Shown here piece by piece: positions 22,282 to 29,504 of a stretch of 37,039 nucleotides of DNA; position 1 is the stretch's first letter; each line of letters opens with the position of its first letter. The translations under genes were made by a program, and so were the position numbers. Under the pieces are notes generated by a model. That model saw only the letters and a program-made list of their open reading frames with translations, was not told the origin of the DNA and did no database searches. The DNA comes from a virus, in IMG/VR virus record IMGVR_UViG_3300050034_000195, positions 1 through 37,039 of that record. One strand, written 5' to 3'.

Positions 22282-22905
22282 TCAAAATCCCGCGTGCGCC
22301 TCGTAGGCGTAGAAGCCGTCCACGGTGGTGCCGTAGCTCTCGGCCACCGGCCGCAATCGCTGCGCATCCATATAGGGGCGCACCTCGGCCAGCTTGATTG
22401 TGGAGGCGGAGGCCATCTGCGCCACCGCGGCTTTGCCTGAGACCGACTGCACCAGGCCCAGCATCGCCGTTACGATCGTTGCCACTCCGTTGATGGCCGC
22501 CAGCACATGCTGCTGACTCGCCGGGTTCGTAATCTTCGCAGCAGAAAGCAGCGATGCGATCACTTGCTGCTGGAAAGTCACAACGGCGGTTTGCAGTTGA
22601 GCCAGCACTCCGGCCGAGGGGTTGGCCTGATAAGCCTTGGCTTGGGCCACCAGCACATTTGAGGCGGCGTCAAAGCCTATCGTCGCTGCCACAAAGATCG
22701 GCGCTTCAGTCGGGGCCAACAGCGCGGCCGTCGAGTCCACCGTCGCCACCGCGCTCTGCAGTGCCGGCGTCCAATTCACAATGTTCTGCGCCACCTGGTT
22801 GCCGGTGCAGCCTACCATCGGAAGCGTGCCTGTTACCAGCAACATGGACAACGCCAAGACGCCCAACAGGCGCGTTGACATGTTTTTGAGAAAGTTCAGC
22901 TTCAT
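22282..22905 (-). CDS. Lipoprotein in lysis cassette
   Basis: 207 residues from ATG 22905, chosen because GGAAGG lies nine bases upstream; an ATG three codons earlier (22914) overlaps the endolysin stop but would abut the SD. Basic N-terminus, hydrophobic core (LLGVLALSMLLVTGTLPMV) and lipobox MVGC, so it is an exported lipoprotein. The mature protein is helical and Ala/Val/Gln-rich (LAQLQTAVVTFQQQVIASLL, NGVATIVTAMLGLVQSV). It directly follows the endolysin gene, so an outer-membrane-disruption role such as an unusual spanin partner is possible. No family was recognised. Confidence 0.65.
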   Translation of the reverse strand: MKLNFLKNMSTRLLGVLALSMLLVTGTLPMVGCTGNQVAQNIVNWTPALQSAVATVDSTAALLAPTEAPIFVAATIGFDAASNVLVAQAKAYQANPSAGVLAQLQTAVVTFQQQVIASLLSAAKITNPASQQHVLAAINGVATIVTAMLGLVQSVSGKAAVAQMASASTIKLAEVRPYMDAQRLRPVAESYGTTVDGFYAYEAHAGF

Positions 22906-22910
22906 AGTGC

Positions 22911-23414
22911 TCATCCTTCCGCCGGGGTCGCCGGGCTGTTTTCGGGGGTTACGTCGTATTGAGAGAGATCGAATTCGCGCACCAGAGCCAGCAGGGCTTC
23001 GGAATAGTGAGGATTGGTGGAATATCCGCACCGCTGGAGTGCGGTTGCGAACTGGGCCGCATCGCCGCGCACAGCCATGGCTGGTGCATAACGAGGCGCG
23101 CAGGATAACAACAACCCGTGAGCCTTGAAGCCATCAGCCACCGTAGCGTAGCGGGCGAACTTGGCCAGCTCCTCCACCGATTGGCCGTTGACCACCTCGT
23201 GCGTGGGCAGCTCGAGATAGCTGTCCGGCGCTACATGGACAGCCGTTTTGATGCCGAAGTAGTTGTTGGCCTGCTTGGCCAGGCCGGTCTGGCCCCAGCC
23301 GCTTTCGAGGATTGCCTGGGCGATGGTGATCGACGCCGGCACGCCTGTCGCGTGTTGCGAGGCAAGCGCCGCCGGAACTGCCAATTTAAGGAACGTCGAT
23401 TCATTTCCTGTCAC
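22911..23414 (-). CDS. Endolysin, glucosaminidase (GH73 / FlgJ-like)
   Basis: 167 residues from GTG 23414. GH73 fold: PASITIAQAILESGWGQTGLAK (catalytic Glu37 in ILESGWG), NNYFGIKTA, then FARYATVADGFKAHGLLL and YSTNPHYSEALLALV. These cleave the GlcNAc-MurNAc backbone of peptidoglycan. There is no signal peptide, so release would depend on a holin, and holin-like genes lie downstream in the same operon. The C-terminal ~15 residues are a Pro/Ala/Glu tail. It is probably the lysis enzyme. Confidence 0.9.
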   Translation of the reverse strand: MTGNESTFLKLAVPAALASQHATGVPASITIAQAILESGWGQTGLAKQANNYFGIKTAVHVAPDSYLELPTHEVVNGQSVEELAKFARYATVADGFKAHGLLLSCAPRYAPAMAVRGDAAQFATALQRCGYSTNPHYSEALLALVREFDLSQYDVTPENSPATPAEG

Positions 23415-23515
23415 GCGCGGCTCCCTGGCTCAGAGTTCGGGAGGCCGGGCGTTGGAACGGGGCGGCTCTCGCTGATCCGCCCACGGCAACGCCCGAGACA
23501 CTCTCGCTCTGGCAC
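23411..23515 (-). CDS. Possible short leader peptide before the endolysin
   Basis: A 34-codon ORF from GTG 23515 (or ATG 23524) ending in a TGA that overlaps the endolysin GTG (GTGA). A perfect AGGAGG (minus strand, 23530-23525) lies nine bases before the GTG. The peptide is Arg/Pro-rich with two Cys (PERECLGRCRGRISESRP). The SD and the overlap argue for translation coupled to the endolysin; the composition argues against a folded protein. Confidence 0.3.
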   Translation of the reverse strand: MPERECLGRCRGRISESRPVPTPGLPNSEPGSRA

Positions 23516-23550
23516 TCCGCACATCCTCCTTTTCGGATCAATGTGCGGTT

Positions 23551-23567
23551 CAGGCCTTAATGGCCTG
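23551..23567. promoter_or_regulatory. Inverted repeat upstream of late/lysis operon
   Basis: CAGGCC-TTAAT-GGCCTG, 6-bp arms with 5-base AT spacer, in the ~250-base gap (23415-23661) that starts the lysis and head genes. Mu Mor and C activate promoters by binding such short dyads, so this is a candidate activator site. No convincing -35/-10 pair was found nearby, which fits an activator-dependent promoter but does not prove it. Apart from the possible leader ORF, the gap holds nothing else recognisable. Confidence 0.3.
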
Positions 23568-23661
23568 GGTTGAGAGTAGGGGCGCTGAGGCCGCAGGGGT
23601 GCGCTAGGTGGCAAAGCCGCGCTCTATGGCTAATTTAGTGAGGATGGATGGGGAGAAAAAT

Positions 23662-24114
23662 CTATTCGAAGTCTGAAATACGCGGGTGTACTTGCTTGAA
23701 CGAAAGCGAGCAGACATCCATGGCCTTTTGTTCTAATTCGCCGGCCTTGGTCCAACAGCCGCTCGCTTCCATCCTTTCGTGAGTAGCTCCGGCTTGATGC
23801 AGCGCGCGACAGCCTTCCTCGGAATCAAGGGCTTCCCTCGCATAGGCAGCCGCTTTCAGTTCCTTATCATTATCGGCTAATTGGACAGTGCGGGATGCGG
23901 ATCTCTGCGCCTCAACCCTATCGAGCTGCCACGCAAGCTCTGGGGCACTGACAGCCATCTCCCCAGTTGCGTGGATGGAGCCGATCAGTGCAGCGCGGAA
24001 CTCCTTGCCGCATGTTGAAATCGAGGAGGACTTGGCCATCTTGGCCGTCGGGCGATCTTGAGCTATCGCGCAACTCACCCCTATCATTAACAGCGCCGCA
24101 ATGAACTTTCTCAT
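23662..24114 (-). CDS. Secreted hypothetical protein
   Basis: 150 residues with a clear signal peptide (MRKFIAALLMIGVSCAIAQ, cleavage likely after AIA). The mature part is charged and helical, with four Cys (STCGKEF, EEGCRALH, ASGCWTK, DVCSLSF) that could form two disulphides in the periplasm. It is transcribed away from the repressor side, between the ORF6C-like gene and the late gap. It may be a lysogenic-conversion ('moron') gene expressed in the prophage state. No family was recognised. Confidence 0.6.
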   Translation of the reverse strand: MRKFIAALLMIGVSCAIAQDRPTAKMAKSSSISTCGKEFRAALIGSIHATGEMAVSAPELAWQLDRVEAQRSASRTVQLADNDKELKAAAYAREALDSEEGCRALHQAGATHERMEASGCWTKAGELEQKAMDVCSLSFKQVHPRISDFE

Positions 24115-24145
24115 TTTGTTTCCACTTTCTGACGGCAGCCTTCGG

Positions 24146-24796
24146 CTATTTTTTGCTCATGACCGCCCGATAAAGAGTCTCTATCTCGGAGTCCGGCATG
24201 TCAATCATCGAATCGCGTCCGAACTTTTCCTTCATATATTTGATACGCCATTCCTCAAATCCCCGTTCTTTGCACCGAGCATGAATGGCCGCAATCCGCT
24301 TTCGGCGCCAGTCCGGATTCTTTGTGTGGGCTGAGGGCTGTGAACGATAGATAGCCCCGTTTCTTCTCAGATAAGCAACCGCTGAGTCGTAATCCTTCTG
24401 AAGAATTTCGGCGTAGGAATTGACCTTCATGTGCCGATCAAACTGGCTATACACAGACTGAAGTGTCCTTGGCGTCCGCTTGACGACCGAATCCTTGACA
24501 ACCTCATTCACGAGTCTGCCTATCTCGGCTTTCTGTTGGGCATCGAGCACTCCATCGCCTGTCTTCACTATTACAGGGGGTGGCACAACCTTCTCTACTC
24601 GTGTGCTCTGGTCGATGAAATCTCGGCCCGCTACCTTATGCGCCCCGGCACCACTGACGGAAATCGAGATTTCCGGATTCGGCTTTCGGCGTCTGGCCCG
24701 CTTGGGCTTTTGATTGTCATCTTCGGGCGCAATTCCAGCAGCGTTGAGCATTTCCTTCACCTTTCTTACTAAATGCGGTTTCTCTTCGTTGGACAC
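24146..24796 (-). CDS. ORF6C-like phage regulatory protein
   Basis: 216 residues if started at GTG 24796, which has AAGGAGA eight bases upstream; an ATG at 24814 lacks an SD. Basic linker KRARRRKP, then SGAGAHKVAGRDFIDQ (a beta motif common to this phage family), then LDAQQKAEIGRLVNEVVKD and VYSQFDRHMKVNSYAEILQK with DSAVAYLRRNG, matching the ORF6C-type region. The C-terminal DWRRKRIAAIHARCKERGF...GRDSMIDMPDSEIETLYRAV is a second conserved helical block. Such proteins lie beside repressors in temperate phages and probably modulate regulation. It is co-directional with the repressor 41 bases upstream. Confidence 0.65.
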   Translation of the reverse strand: MSNEEKPHLVRKVKEMLNAAGIAPEDDNQKPKRARRRKPNPEISISVSGAGAHKVAGRDFIDQSTRVEKVVPPPVIVKTGDGVLDAQQKAEIGRLVNEVVKDSVVKRTPRTLQSVYSQFDRHMKVNSYAEILQKDYDSAVAYLRRNGAIYRSQPSAHTKNPDWRRKRIAAIHARCKERGFEEWRIKYMKEKFGRDSMIDMPDSEIETLYRAVMSKK

Positions 24797-24836
24797 TTTC
24801 TGCTCTCCTTGCATTCACAGTTTGGCGTGATGGCAT

Positions 24837-25286
24837 TCAGGCGATCTTCGCGAGACGAGCCGCCATTGAGTTGTCTTTCTGCCCGGTTTCAAGGCAGTAG
24901 TCGTAGAGAATCCCTACCATCTCGGCGTACTTCACGCTCGAACGCGATTGCTTCCGCCGCTTCAATTCCTCATCCAAGGTCTCTATTACGTGGGTCAATA
25001 TGCCCTGATCGATCTTCGTGGTCTCTGTAGTCCGCGATACCAAATCGGCTAGAAGCATGGGGCCGCTCCCTGTGAGCAACCAGTTCACGTTGAGGCCCCT
25101 GCCTGCAAGCGCCTTGAGTACCTTGCTATTTGGTGCACTCTTTCCTGACTCGTTGTCTTGAATCCCGCGCAACGTGCCGCCAACGGCCTCAGCGAGTCCC
25201 TTCTGTGAAAATCTTTCATTTTCTCTAAAGGTGCGCAGTCTCACCCCTATCTCGACAGCAAGAGACGTATTTTCAGTTATTTCCAT
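24837..25286 (-). CDS. XRE-family phage repressor
   Basis: 149 residues from ATG 25286, chosen because GGGAG lies eight bases upstream; the ORF is open to 25316. The HTH_3 domain spans about 10-65 (VRLRTFRENERFSQKGLAEAV ... GIQDNESGKSAPNSKVL). It is followed by LNVNWLLTGSGPML, the signature of CI/Rok-type phage repressors. The C-terminal part is a short helical oligomerisation region with no S24 peptidase motif, so RecA-triggered self-cleavage is not expected. It faces the early operon across the three operator-like sites and should keep the prophage silent. Confidence 0.85.
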   Translation of the reverse strand: MEITENTSLAVEIGVRLRTFRENERFSQKGLAEAVGGTLRGIQDNESGKSAPNSKVLKALAGRGLNVNWLLTGSGPMLLADLVSRTTETTKIDQGILTHVIETLDEELKRRKQSRSSVKYAEMVGILYDYCLETGQKDNSMAARLAKIA

Positions 25287-25329
25287 TGGAAACGCTCCCG
25301 GCATGGCTCTGGTCATGGGCGCAGGTCTA

Positions 25330-25384
25330 ACGCAAAAATGTTCATCTTGTACGTAAAAATGTGTTGAAGTGAACAGTTTTGCGT
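25330..25384. promoter_or_regulatory. Three operator-like 15-bp sites between repressor and early operon
   Basis: Site 1 ACGCAAAAATGTTCA (25330-25344); site 2 ACGTAAAAATGTGTT (25351-25365), same orientation, start offset 21 bases; site 3 TGAACAGTTTTGCGT (25370-25384), inverted, matching site 1 at 14 of 15 positions. Three similar sites in a divergent control region resemble OL/OR of temperate phages. Site 3 lies inside the rightward promoter spacer. They are candidate targets of the XRE repressor or of the HTH-module proteins. Confidence 0.7.
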
Positions 25385-25392
25385 GCTATCGT
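25364..25392 (+). promoter_or_regulatory. Candidate early rightward promoter
   Basis: TTGAAG (25364-25369), 17-base spacer, TATCGT (25387-25392): a sigma70-like pair with optimal spacing. The spacer contains operator site 3, so repressor bound there would block it. Transcription would start near 25399, just upstream of GGAGG (25403-25407) and the TTG start at 25414. A leftward promoter for the repressor must also lie in 25290-25380, but I could not choose one convincingly. Confidence 0.6.
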
Positions 25393-25413
25393 TCTCTGCG
25401 TTGGAGGTTCCAC

Positions 25414-25623
25414 TTGAAACCCCGTTCTCAATCTACCGCGCCGGAGCTGGAACAAGCTGCTTTGTTTTGGGGTATTTATAGTCGCCTTGCCAGAAAACTT
25501 GGCGTGAGTCCCCAAGCCGTTCGCCAAGTTTCCAGAGGAATCAGCTCTTCAAAACGCATATCGGCCGCTATCCGCCAAGAAGTTCGCCGGATCAACCGTA
25601 GCCGAGAGGAACGCGCCGCGTGA
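25414..25623 (+). CDS. Single-module HTH protein, Ner/Cro position
   Basis: 69 residues from TTG 25414, with GGAGG six bases upstream. The longer GTG start (25369) would precede the likely transcription start. One HTH module: ALFWGIYSRLARKLGVSP, QAVRQVSRGISSSKRI, then SAAIRQEVRRINRSR. It is the first gene of the early operon, the place of Mu Ner or lambda Cro, so it probably represses early and/or repressor transcription. The same module recurs three times in the next gene, which overlaps it by GTGA. Confidence 0.7.
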   Translation: MKPRSQSTAPELEQAALFWGIYSRLARKLGVSPQAVRQVSRGISSSKRISAAIRQEVRRINRSREERAA

Positions 25624-26357
25624 GCAAAAATCCTTCCCGCATGGAGCAGCTGGGCAGCCTGCTGACCGCCATGATCGCTGTAGTTATTAGCGGACAATCC
25701 GATCTGCTCATCAAAAACAGTCGATTTATTCTGCCCAACGCAAATCCTCGCGACTTTAAACCGGGCGGCAAATATTTCGGAATCTGCAAAAGCGTTGCCC
25801 GGAAAACAGGAGTGACTAGGGGCCACGTCAATGATGTCGCGTGGGGGCGATCCGGCTCCCCCCGTGTGCGATCCGCATTTCTTAATGAGATTGAGCTAAT
25901 CGATGCTTTGACGCCCACGAAACCTTTGTCCCCCGCCGAGCGGGAACAAATAACCAGTGGTGAAAAATATAAAGGCATCTATCCTCGCCTCGCTGCAACC
26001 TTAGGCGTTTCCAAATCAACGGTGCGCCGCGTGATCTTAGGGCTGAGGACCGACCAGAGGATAGAACGGCAAATCCTTGCTGCCGTCCGGAAAGAAATGG
26101 CTCGGATCGAGGCTGTCCTTGAAGAGACAGAAATTCCTCGCTTGACCCTCAACGAGAGAGCTTTGTTCAGCAAAAGGGGTAGGTACTGGGGAATCTACCA
26201 GGAGATAGCCAAACACCTGAATTGCTGCGGGGATAATGTCCGGCATCATGCGTTGAGCCCTACATCCACGCGCTCTAACGAAATATTGCGGCTTGTTCGA
26301 GCCGAGATGGCCCGCGTAGATGCCGAGCTTGCGGCAAAGAACGGAGGCAAAGCATGA
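25620..26357 (+). CDS. Triple-module HTH regulator
   Basis: 245 residues from GTG 25620. After an N-terminal helical part (1-45) it carries three copies of the module seen in the preceding gene: 48-94 (GGKYFGICKSVARKTGVTRG...), 114-163 (GEKYKGIYPRLAATLGVSKS...RKEMARI) and 186-233 (RGRYWGIYQEIAKHLNCCGD...RAEMARV). The consensus is 'Y-x-G-I-Y-x-x-x-A-x-x-x-G-V-(S/T)', a recognition helix, then 'R-I-x-x-x-I-x-x-E-M-x-R-I'. The third turn is degenerate (NCCGD). It is likely a DNA-binding protein able to contact several sites, possibly the operators or the transposon ends. It overlaps the transposase gene by ATGA. Confidence 0.65.
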   Translation: MSKNPSRMEQLGSLLTAMIAVVISGQSDLLIKNSRFILPNANPRDFKPGGKYFGICKSVARKTGVTRGHVNDVAWGRSGSPRVRSAFLNEIELIDALTPTKPLSPAEREQITSGEKYKGIYPRLAATLGVSKSTVRRVILGLRTDQRIERQILAAVRKEMARIEAVLEETEIPRLTLNERALFSKRGRYWGIYQEIAKHLNCCGDNVRHHALSPTSTRSNEILRLVRAEMARVDAELAAKNGGKA

Positions 26358-28495
26358 GTGCCGCCCAACTGCAACTCACCGCCTTGACGCCCTCCGGATC
26401 GGGGTGGGTCACCGCCGACCAAGCCATGCAAATCACGGGCTGGTCTCGTACATGGTTCTTCGCGCAAGTGCAGACCGGCCGAGTGATCTCCCGAGAAGGC
26501 GACCAGCGCGCAGCTAATGGCCGGCCGACGCGCCTCTATCTGGCAGCATCTCTGCCGACGCGACATGCACTGGAACTCGTCCGCCCCTCGATCCAGGTCC
26601 CCTTACCGCTTTTCGACGAGGCTCCCAAGATTCCCGAACTGCGCGTCGCGCTACCCGATCCGGCTGCCCAGAAGCTTGCCGAGCAGCGGCTTGCGATCAT
26701 CCGACCGATCCTCGAATACGATGCCGACCCCGAGAAGTGGTCCGCGTGCCAGCTGGCAGACGAATCTTTGGTCAGCTCGAAGACCCAGCTTGTCCGGTAC
26801 ATCGCCGAAATCAGCCAGCCCAGAGTCAGCGAGCGCACCATCTGGGGATGGTACCGCGCCGTCACAAACGGCGGCCCCAAAGCCCTGGCCAAAAAACTGC
26901 GCGCCGACAAGGGACAGAGCCGCTGGTTCAGCCTGCATCCCAAAGCACGCATCCTTGCCGCTTATCTTTACCTCGGCGACATTGACCGCAAGGATCTGCT
27001 GCCGAACGAGAAGCCGCATCGGCCCCAGAGCGTTGCTTTCGTCTGCGAGCAGATCCGCGAGCGCGCTGATAGCCTCGGCATTGCCGCAGGCGATTTGCCC
27101 AGCCGCGAGACGGTGCGCTCTTTCCTTTCGCAGGCGATTTCGCCCGCGATGAAGGTTTTGGCGCGCGAAGGAAAGCGTGAATATCACGAGCGCATGTCTC
27201 CTTTCCTGCGGCGCCGCTACGACGACATTTATGCCAACCAGGTCTGGGTGGGCGATCAGATGTGGCACGACGCCGAAGTCGCGAATGACATCTTTGACGA
27301 TGTGCCGCTCGGTACGCCGCTTCGTCTGCGCTTGGATGCGTTCGAGGACTTCCGCAGCCGCAAGATCGTTGGTGCGACCTGGACTCACTTCGGCAGCTCA
27401 CGCTCGATTGCAGCGACCTTGCGCCGCGCCATTCTCCAGTACGGCCCTCCGGAGATGATCTACGTCGATAACGGCAAGGACTACAAAAAGATTGCCAAGG
27501 GAGCACAGAAAGGCTTCCCGGCCGAGGATCGTCGGGTGCAGGATCTCCGGCCCGAAGACGTTGCCCCCATCGAGCAGACAGGATTTCTGGCGCGGATCGG
27601 CGCCGGCGTCGTGCATTGCATTCCCCGCCACCCACAGTCGAAGGGCGTAGAGCGCTGCTTCGGCACCGTGCATCACTTTGACGCGTTCTTCTCGACCTAC
27701 ACTTCCGGATCCACGGCCACGCGGCCCGAGTCCACGGGAGACGCCATGATGGAGCACCGGCGCCTATTCAAGAAAGGCCGCGTCGCCGAGTCGAAGCACC
27801 CACTGGCGAGCACCTTCATTCTTGCCTGCCTGTCTTGGATCGACAAGTACAACGCCACGCCGCATTCAGGCGAAGGCATGGATGGCCGTAGCCCCAACGA
27901 AGTCTTCGCGGCAGAATTTAACCCCAACCAGAAGCCCACGCCGCCGCCTGAGACGCTGGCGCTTCTGATGGTTGAATACGAACGCCGTCAGGTGCGCGAA
28001 TGTGCCGTGACGCTTAACAAGCGCCGCTATACAGCGCAGTCTGAGGATCGTCTGGCCTGGGCAGCGATGCATGAGGCCAATGAGCGCGAGATCCTCGTCG
28101 TCTACGATCCCGCCGATCCGGAATACGCTGCCGCGCTCGATCTGGACGGTCGGTTCATCGCCTGGCTGGAGGCTGAAGTACTTGTCCGCTTTGCGCCGAA
28201 CGATCCTGCCACACAATCTCAGATCGGTAAATCGATGGAGATCCGCCGTGGCCTGGAAAAAGCCACGAAGACCACGCTGCGCTCAATCGCACGCGCTGCG
28301 CGCTCGGGCGGCGCGCAGTCGGCCGAGGAGATGGCCTACAGCAACATCCAGATTCCGGTTACGACCGCTCCTATCATTTCCCAGCGCGGGCAAGGAAGGC
28401 CCAACAACAACGAACCCACCAACGAACTGATACCGGGCCAGGGCGCGGATCGACTGGCAGAACGACTTCGGAGGAATAGTGTCAACTCTCGCTAA
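26354..28495 (+). CDS. A: Mu-type DDE transposase
   Basis: 713 residues. The N-terminal Mu-type winged helix (about 15-75: GWVTADQAMQITGWSRTWFF ... GRPTRLYLAASLP) binds enhancer/end DNA; a second helical DNA-binding part spans about 105-270. The RNase H-like core has D301 (WVGDQMWHD), D372 (IYVDNGKDY) and E433 (HPQSKGVERCFG), a D-D-60-E spacing close to MuA. A Mu-transposase C-terminal beta-barrel follows (about 515-600: LNKRRYTA, VVYDPADPE). The tail is basic, Asn/Gln-rich, for MuB contact. It integrates the phage and replicates it by transposition. GGAGGC precedes the ATG. Confidence 0.96.
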   Translation: MSAAQLQLTALTPSGSGWVTADQAMQITGWSRTWFFAQVQTGRVISREGDQRAANGRPTRLYLAASLPTRHALELVRPSIQVPLPLFDEAPKIPELRVALPDPAAQKLAEQRLAIIRPILEYDADPEKWSACQLADESLVSSKTQLVRYIAEISQPRVSERTIWGWYRAVTNGGPKALAKKLRADKGQSRWFSLHPKARILAAYLYLGDIDRKDLLPNEKPHRPQSVAFVCEQIRERADSLGIAAGDLPSRETVRSFLSQAISPAMKVLAREGKREYHERMSPFLRRRYDDIYANQVWVGDQMWHDAEVANDIFDDVPLGTPLRLRLDAFEDFRSRKIVGATWTHFGSSRSIAATLRRAILQYGPPEMIYVDNGKDYKKIAKGAQKGFPAEDRRVQDLRPEDVAPIEQTGFLARIGAGVVHCIPRHPQSKGVERCFGTVHHFDAFFSTYTSGSTATRPESTGDAMMEHRRLFKKGRVAESKHPLASTFILACLSWIDKYNATPHSGEGMDGRSPNEVFAAEFNPNQKPTPPPETLALLMVEYERRQVRECAVTLNKRRYTAQSEDRLAWAAMHEANEREILVVYDPADPEYAAALDLDGRFIAWLEAEVLVRFAPNDPATQSQIGKSMEIRRGLEKATKTTLRSIARAARSGGAQSAEEMAYSNIQIPVTTAPIISQRGQGRPNNNEPTNELIPGQGADRLAERLRRNSVNSR

Positions 28496-29504
28496 CAAAA
28501 AAGCTCATCTCCAATCGATGGGATTGCCCAGCGATGCGGAGACCATTCGCCGGACGCGGACCTTCGCGCTCCGCGCCGGCCTTACCCTTGCGGAAATGGC
28601 CGACCTGGCCGCGTTGAACCCCAACTCGCTGCGCGTCTTTTTATCGGGATGTTACGACCGGCATCACGCGGCGGACTCGAACACCCTGGTGATCCGCGCT
28701 GCGCTCAAGCAGGTGATGGATCGCTACGAGATTGAGAACCTGCCGCCAACGACTGGGCCGCACTATGACACGGCCGAATACAGCGCCGTCCGCCACTCGA
28801 TGTGGGCCGCGCTGAAGCAGGGCACCGCGTTCCTGGTCGATGGACCTCCGGGAACGCAGAAGACCTACACCTTCCGCCGCGTGGCCGAGGAGATCAACCA
28901 ATCAAAGGAAGGCCGCGCGGTCTACGTCTACTCGCGCGTCGATCACTCGCCACAGGGGTTTCTGGTGGAAGCCTGCACCGAGGCCGGCATTCCCTGCCGC
29001 GGCAATATCGATCAGTTGCTGCGCAAGTTGAGGTATTTTCTGGCCGGCAAGCGGACGCTGCTGATTGTGGATGAGGCTCAGCACCTGGGCCTCAACGGCC
29101 TGGAGGTTCTGCGCCAGCTCCTCGACACGCCGCCTTACTTCGGCGTGGTGCTGGGCGGTAGTCACGATCTCTCCATGCGGCTGCGGGATTGGCGCATGGA
29201 GCAGTGGCGCAGCCGCTTGCGCCGCACCCATCTGCTCAAAGGGCTCAGCGCTGAAGAGGCCGGCCGGATCCTGACCGCCGAAGTGGGCCAGATGCGCCGG
29301 GACGACATGGCTGCCAGCATCCAGGACGCCACGGTCGAGGCCGTGCGCAACCGCAAGACCTTCCGGTACATCAGCGCCCGCAACCTGTTCTTCTCCATCG
29401 AAGACGCCCGCAACGTTATCTCCGCGGCCGCCTGCGCTCCCGTGGCGCCAGCCACCGAGACGACTCCAATCGCCGAGTGGCAAAGAGAAGAGGCAATTGC
29501 ATGA
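28479..29504 (+). CDS. B: MuB-type transposition ATPase
   Basis: 341 residues from GTG 28479, overlapping the transposase end by 17 bases, with GGAGG just upstream. The N-terminal HTH (about 33-58, LTLAEMADLAALNPNSLRVFLSG) is like MuB. The AAA+ domain has Walker A GPPGTQKT (122-129), Walker B LLIVDEAQ (194-201) and a sensor segment VVLGGSHD (223-230). It forms ATP-dependent filaments on target DNA, stimulates the transposase and gives target immunity. The C-terminus is rich in Ala/Pro/Thr. Orthology is by motif and operon position. Confidence 0.94.
   Translation: MSTLANKKAHLQSMGLPSDAETIRRTRTFALRAGLTLAEMADLAALNPNSLRVFLSGCYDRHHAADSNTLVIRAALKQVMDRYEIENLPPTTGPHYDTAEYSAVRHSMWAALKQGTAFLVDGPPGTQKTYTFRRVAEEINQSKEGRAVYVYSRVDHSPQGFLVEACTEAGIPCRGNIDQLLRKLRYFLAGKRTLLIVDEAQHLGLNGLEVLRQLLDTPPYFGVVLGGSHDLSMRLRDWRMEQWRSRLRRTHLLKGLSAEEAGRILTAEVGQMRRDDMAASIQDATVEAVRNRKTFRYISARNLFFSIEDARNVISAAACAPVAPATETTPIAEWQREEAIA

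Follow-up and report, generated by a model that had tools for sequence, protein, structure and literature searches.

In phage Mu and Mu-like phages, the first early gene encodes Ner, a small helix-turn-helix (HTH) protein, and is transcribed divergently from the repressor gene. Two other described groups are close to the locus reported here: Cro and the lambda-repressor-like proteins of the HTH_3 family, and phrog_2345, annotated as a "transcriptional regulator". The window that we analysed is the whole stretch of 37,039 nucleotides of an IMG/VR record. It is a transposing phage of soil acidobacteria: judged by its sequence, a Mu-like prophage, with relatives that indicate Acidobacteriaceae as the host group. 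It encodes MuA and MuB homologues and a Mu-type portal (phrog_310, phrog_296, Portal_Mu, Terminase_6), with a weak match to Mu-like_Pro. The window contains a single prophage end, and 3-302 is the terminal part of a host gene for an S9 peptidase. In the segments 1-519 and 22282-25316, the peptidase end is followed by minus-strand morphogenesis genes that reach to the repressor; the early region is thus mid-record, unlike in Mu, whose repressor gene lies close to the left end. A protein with matches to ORF6C and phrog_17822 (24146-24814, minus strand) adjoins the repressor and resembles phage anti-repressors; among the first 17 loci, close homologues were present just in L012 and L015. The early region contains the following genes:

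24837-25316, minus strand: divergent HTH repressor, 159 aa, starting at 25316 or 25286 (phrog_8, E = 8e-10)
25414-25623, plus strand: p69, 69 aa, heads the early operon from a TTG start and has a single HTH module (approximately residues 12-60)
25620-26357, plus strand: p245, 245 aa, GTG start, three HTH modules, directly upstream of MuA
26354-28495, plus strand: MuA-like transposase, 713 aa (phrog_310, E = 4e-75; Mu-transpos_C)
28479-29504, plus strand: MuB-like AAA ATPase, 341 aa (phrog_296, E = 2e-26; AAA_22)

The repeated unit of p69 and p245

The genes for p69 and p245 overlap by four bases (GTGA), as do those for p245 and MuA (ATGA at 26354). The initial annotation had proposed that one module occurs once in the 69-residue product and three times in the 245-residue product, and this was borne out by a profile that contained no window sequence. 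Against a module HMM built from the other loci alone, p69 scored 73.5 bits and the three segments of p245 scored 51.2, 49.1 and 36.6 bits (residues 49-95, 114-164 and 187-234), as compared with 8.0 and 7.5 bits for the best of 1000 shuffles of p69 and of p245, respectively. These limits agree with those first proposed (48-94, 114-163 and 186-233). The modules of p245 are:

25764-25904, plus strand: module A, residues 49-95, recognition helix TRGHVNDV
25959-26111, plus strand: module B, residues 114-164, recognition helix SKSTVRRV
26178-26321, plus strand: module C, residues 187-234, recognition helix CGDNVRHH

Pairwise comparison of these modules and that of p69 (S) with BLOSUM62 gave scores of 94 (S-B), 69 (B-C), 67 (S-A), 57 (S-C), 45 (A-B) and 37 (A-C). 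All pairs but A-C exceeded 2000 out of 2000 shuffles, and the A-C score was matched by five of 2000, so that the modules beat shuffled sequence both in the profile and in the pairwise comparison, a check that the annotation itself had suggested. The letter motif quoted there describes the family loosely, since module A reads GIC and GVT, and module C reads LNC where GVS was quoted.

The HTH nature assumed for the modules agrees with AlphaFold2 models made with alignments of relatives, in which each module is predicted as a helix, an HTH and a long helix, with pLDDT mostly 80-95. The predicted helices span residues 10-29, 33-40 and 47-68 in p69, and 55-63/67-74/81-96, 120-128/132-139/146-169 and 192-200/204-212/217-242 in the modules of p245. 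With a mean pLDDT of 84 and a pTM of 0.51-0.61 (0.51 for the whole p245 model), the single units are believable, but their mutual arrangement is not. Foldseek returned no match at E <= 0.001, and none of significance for the whole p245 model; the top matches of p69, with E above 1, were the HTH domains of LacI/CcpA, 434 Cro and the 434/lambda repressors, the leading structures superposing at 2.4-3.5 Å over 32-45 residues, which is not significant. Against HTH_3, for which the Pfam cut-off is 23, p69 scored 14.1 and p245 16.2, and a host relative (L108) scored 24.1, above the cut-off.

Single modules mostly retain the pattern (S/T)PxHVRxV in the recognition helix. Relative to single modules, arrays show 1.08 bits more diversity in the recognition-helix columns and 0.43 bits more in the other columns. 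Such divergence fits units that have different targets, or a partial loss of binding, and to judge by their sequences some modules, C especially, could have lost the ability to bind DNA.

Copy number and exchange upstream of the transposase gene

Relatives were collected via MuA from IMG/VR and from Acidobacteriaceae genome bins; the alignment of array proteins is too variable to serve as a collection query. The resulting set has 66 loci whose MuA-like transposase was scored with confidence, including the window and a few near-identical loci, and one member (L026) is from a genome bin labelled as a beta-proteobacterium. The module is encoded by the first early gene in 61 of the 66 loci, and 56 distinct homologues of this gene could be aligned. 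The usual order is repressor (minus strand), the first early gene (M1), an optional second gene, phrog_2345, an optional module gene and MuA. At L009 (5067-5522), the second early gene has an HTH_3 domain (PF01381, above the cut-off) instead of the module. In 12 loci, a second gene with a module array precedes MuA:

Three modules, five loci: the window, L012, L024, L025 and L060
Two modules, seven loci: L004, L007, L015, L022, L036, L051 and L062

The array gene overlaps or abuts MuA everywhere save in L007, where one gene of 126 aa lies between. The slot before MuA is occupied by phrog_2345 in most relatives and by a gene of one, two or three units in others. Sequence comparison therefore confirms that the design is real and recurs, with one, two or three copies of the module in the pre-MuA place of related phages. 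On the MuA tree the presence of arrays requires at least nine changes, indicating that they were often gained or lost. The sister contrasts of the window (array) with L003 (phrog_2345) and of L004 (array) with L021 (phrog_2345) are instructive. Absence of phrog_2345 was found in eight of the 12 loci with an array versus five of the 49 without one, and four array phages carry both genes. This association gave p = 1.5e-4 in a Fisher test that ignores kinship (counts 5, 44 and 8, 4), and a kinship-aware sign test with nine independent pairs, 5.7 for and 0.7 against, was not significant (median p = 0.125).

The MuA homologues of several loci (L011, L013, L014, L022-L025, L029, L034-L036, L046, L047, L051, L053 and L059) begin about 90-100 residues in, seemingly lacking the N-terminal domain by which MuA of Mu binds the enhancer. 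A link between the presence of arrays and the loss of this region was considered, and by inspection there was no clear pattern.

The nearest sister of the window is L003, whose MuA is 82% identical. The DNA of both can be aligned up to position 24016 and again from 26391, with flanks of 68-84% identity, and 24017-26390 gave no alignment. As only the flanks align, what has been swapped is the regulatory block as a whole, starting with the repressor region and ending where the transposase begins. When the DNA of L004 and L012 was compared with the window, the p245 gene was common only at its beginning and end, which encode the N-terminal helix and the final part of the third module, respectively, in p245.

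In the module tree, whose internal support is weak because it has 48 columns only, modules of single genes and of arrays are mostly apart (five changes, versus 25 in shuffles). The nearest relative of p69 is the first gene of L025, with 76% identity, and not p245. The proposal that p69 and p245 arose as a pair by duplication was thus not supported as far as a recent event is concerned; given the separation on the tree and the proximity of p69 to L025, any such duplication would be old.

Candidate promoter, operator-like repeats and proposed roles

The region between the repressor and p69 genes contains a candidate promoter and three repeats:

25330-25344, plus strand: operator-like repeat 1, ACGCAAAAATGTTCA
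25351-25365, plus strand: operator-like repeat 2, ACGTAAAAATGTGTT
25364-25392, plus strand: candidate early promoter TTGAAG-N17-TATCGT, proposed from sequence, with TTGACA-like and TATxxT-like boxes at the equal place in relatives
25370-25384, minus strand: operator-like repeat 3, inverted, ACGCAAAACTGTTCA, occupying most of the promoter spacer

A sigma70-like promoter precedes the first gene in nearly all relatives; for a few loci (L004, L007 and L036) the position assigned to it is probably wrong. An alternative start of p69, GTG at 25369, is ahead of the promoter end, while TTG at 25414 follows a ribosome-binding GGAGG (25403-25407); TTG is therefore favoured, and this arrangement recurs in several relatives. 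As was first proposed, p69 is in the position of Ner or Cro, since it is the leading early gene, diverges from the repressor gene and follows the promoter-like sequence; p245 is not in this position.

The three operator-like sites predicted by the initial annotation do exist, as three copies of ACGYAAAAnTGTtCA inside 55 bp. Under the same counting rule (a 10-mer with one mismatch allowed, which can miss degenerate sites), one or two repeats were detected in the other three-module phages and three in L050, which has one module. Among 52 phages, operator similarity tracks repressor similarity (partial Mantel correlation 0.126, p = 0.001) and does not track the likeness of first module proteins (0.05, p = 0.10), with the reservation that these correlations are weak and compare entire ORFs. 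L025 and the window have no detectable operator sequence in common, despite the 76% identity of their first-gene modules.

According to these data, we consider it somewhat more probable than not (about 0.55) that p69 and p245 are both DNA-binding proteins of the early operon, p69 being Cro/Ner-like and p245 an optional multivalent second regulator. For p69, the most likely identity is a Cro/Ner-like early regulator with no detectable homology to Ner. As the near-constant first early gene, p69 probably damps early and repressor transcription in the manner of Cro or Ner, not necessarily via the repressor's own operator sites; a plain Cro/Ner role is weakened by the fact that operators do not track the first module proteins. 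With three units joined by linkers, p245 would bind one composite stretch of DNA by several contacts, or bridge separate sites, and the divergence of its recognition helices makes composite or separate sites the most likely targets. It may thereby tune the early operon, from a slot that is exchangeable between phrog_2345 and genes of one, two or three units.

A broader proposal, which we hold only tentatively, is that these arrays are a modular class of regulators, in which tandem HTH units with their own diverged recognition helices are gained or lost per chain, read a composite site, and are swapped as cassettes with an unrelated pre-transposase regulator. If so, how many units there are, and of which kinds, would determine specificity.

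It is also conceivable, though rather unlikely, that p245 is an architectural accessory of transposition which gathers the operator/enhancer and the prophage ends for MuA. In Mu, this task is done by IHF/HU and by the MuA N-terminal domain. For Mu to transpose, both ends and the operator/enhancer must join in a complex of three sites (PMC3820752), the p245 gene is directly upstream of MuA and overlaps it, and multiple DNA-binding units would suit bridging. However, the MuA of the window retains its N-terminal region, arrays occur both with and without this region, and most sister phages have no array.

The match in number between modules and operators, on which the initial annotation relied, would make p245 a single-chain Ner/Cro that holds all three operator copies with one module each. 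Three related sites within 55 bp and three modules do agree in the window, but we regard this reading as improbable, because repeat numbers differ in the other three-module phages and in L050, because the sites are alike while the three recognition helices differ, and because the operators track the repressor.

A hydrophobic N-terminal helix (25638-25688, plus strand), predicted as a separate helix at residues 7-23 of p245, was also found in the array proteins of L004, L012, L022, L024, L025, L036, L051 and L060, in sequence types such as LLTAMIAVVISG and LALDFACAAMTVLMSG. In these nine of the 12 array proteins, mean hydropathy is 1.4-1.9 across 17 residues. That this helix anchors p245 in the membrane, with the modules sequestering DNA or excluding other phages, in line with the superinfection exclusion shown by the gene that follows ner in Pseudomonas phage Fc02 (PMC9936078), is very improbable, since the stretch is short, includes D, S or Q in many members and is missing in L007, L015 and L062. 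Nevertheless, a purely soluble DNA-binding role of the array proteins does not account for the hydrophobic helix kept in most of them.

Comparison with host proteins and described regulators

With p69 and its relatives, which appear to be early regulators, the transposable phages of Acidobacteria gain a family that has had no name so far; few phages of Acidobacteria have been studied. Genes with one, two and three units at an equal position in related phages provide a natural series in which the effect of unit repetition on specificity can be followed, and, between close relatives, everything from the repressor to the beginning of the transposase is exchanged in one piece.

The modules of both proteins seem to belong to a single family of small trihelical HTH units, of which single copies are also present in Acidobacteriaceae genomes. 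Of 200 host-family genomes sampled, at least 38 had module matches, nearly all of them single modules, counted irrespective of nearby phage genes; these counts are lower bounds because a limited number of candidates was scored per genome. Arrays were restricted to two prophages of one genome in this sample, and no further arrays were found in a class-wide sample of 399 genomes. The host single modules are proteins of 63-70 aa, or of about 230 aa with an RsbRD_N-like C-terminal part, and score 54-76 bits against the module profile. L113, L114, L117, L119, L121 and L123 are host proteins of the latter type, with an N-terminal module; the resemblance to RsbRD_N is a weak Pfam match in both proteins tested (L117 and L121). 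The profile places these host proteins in one family with p69 and p245, but they have one module only, are on host contigs and carry the recognition helix DRSYVSRV or DPSYVSRV, as opposed to PQHVRxV.

The annotation's view that such a design is undescribed was upheld, as no such array was found in Pfam, NCBIfam, PHROGs, PDB sequences, phage records or the open-access papers searched. A sequence search of the PDB gave no match, tblastn against phages and plasmids gave no credible homologue of p245, and a direct pattern scan of IMG/VR gave no close homologue; tblastn also found no relatives of phrog_2345 in GenBank phages.

Of the suggestion that the pair replaces Ner/Cro, one part stands, as p69 may do so; p245 sits in the slot of phrog_2345, and four phages have both. 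Like p245, phrog_2345 is placed after the first early gene and ahead of MuA, as seen in most relatives, but it has no module and no detected sequence similarity to p245. With Cro and HTH_3 proteins, the modules have in common the predicted trihelical HTH; p69 scores under the cut-offs of HTH_3 and P22_Cro, and the arrays differ in having two or three units per chain. With Ner, p69 shares its small size, its HTH and its place as first early gene divergent from the repressor, whereas neither p69 nor p245 matches any Ner family (no Ner model among matches up to E = 1 in Pfam, NCBIfam and PHROGs), and here the module recurs in tandem in a second gene.
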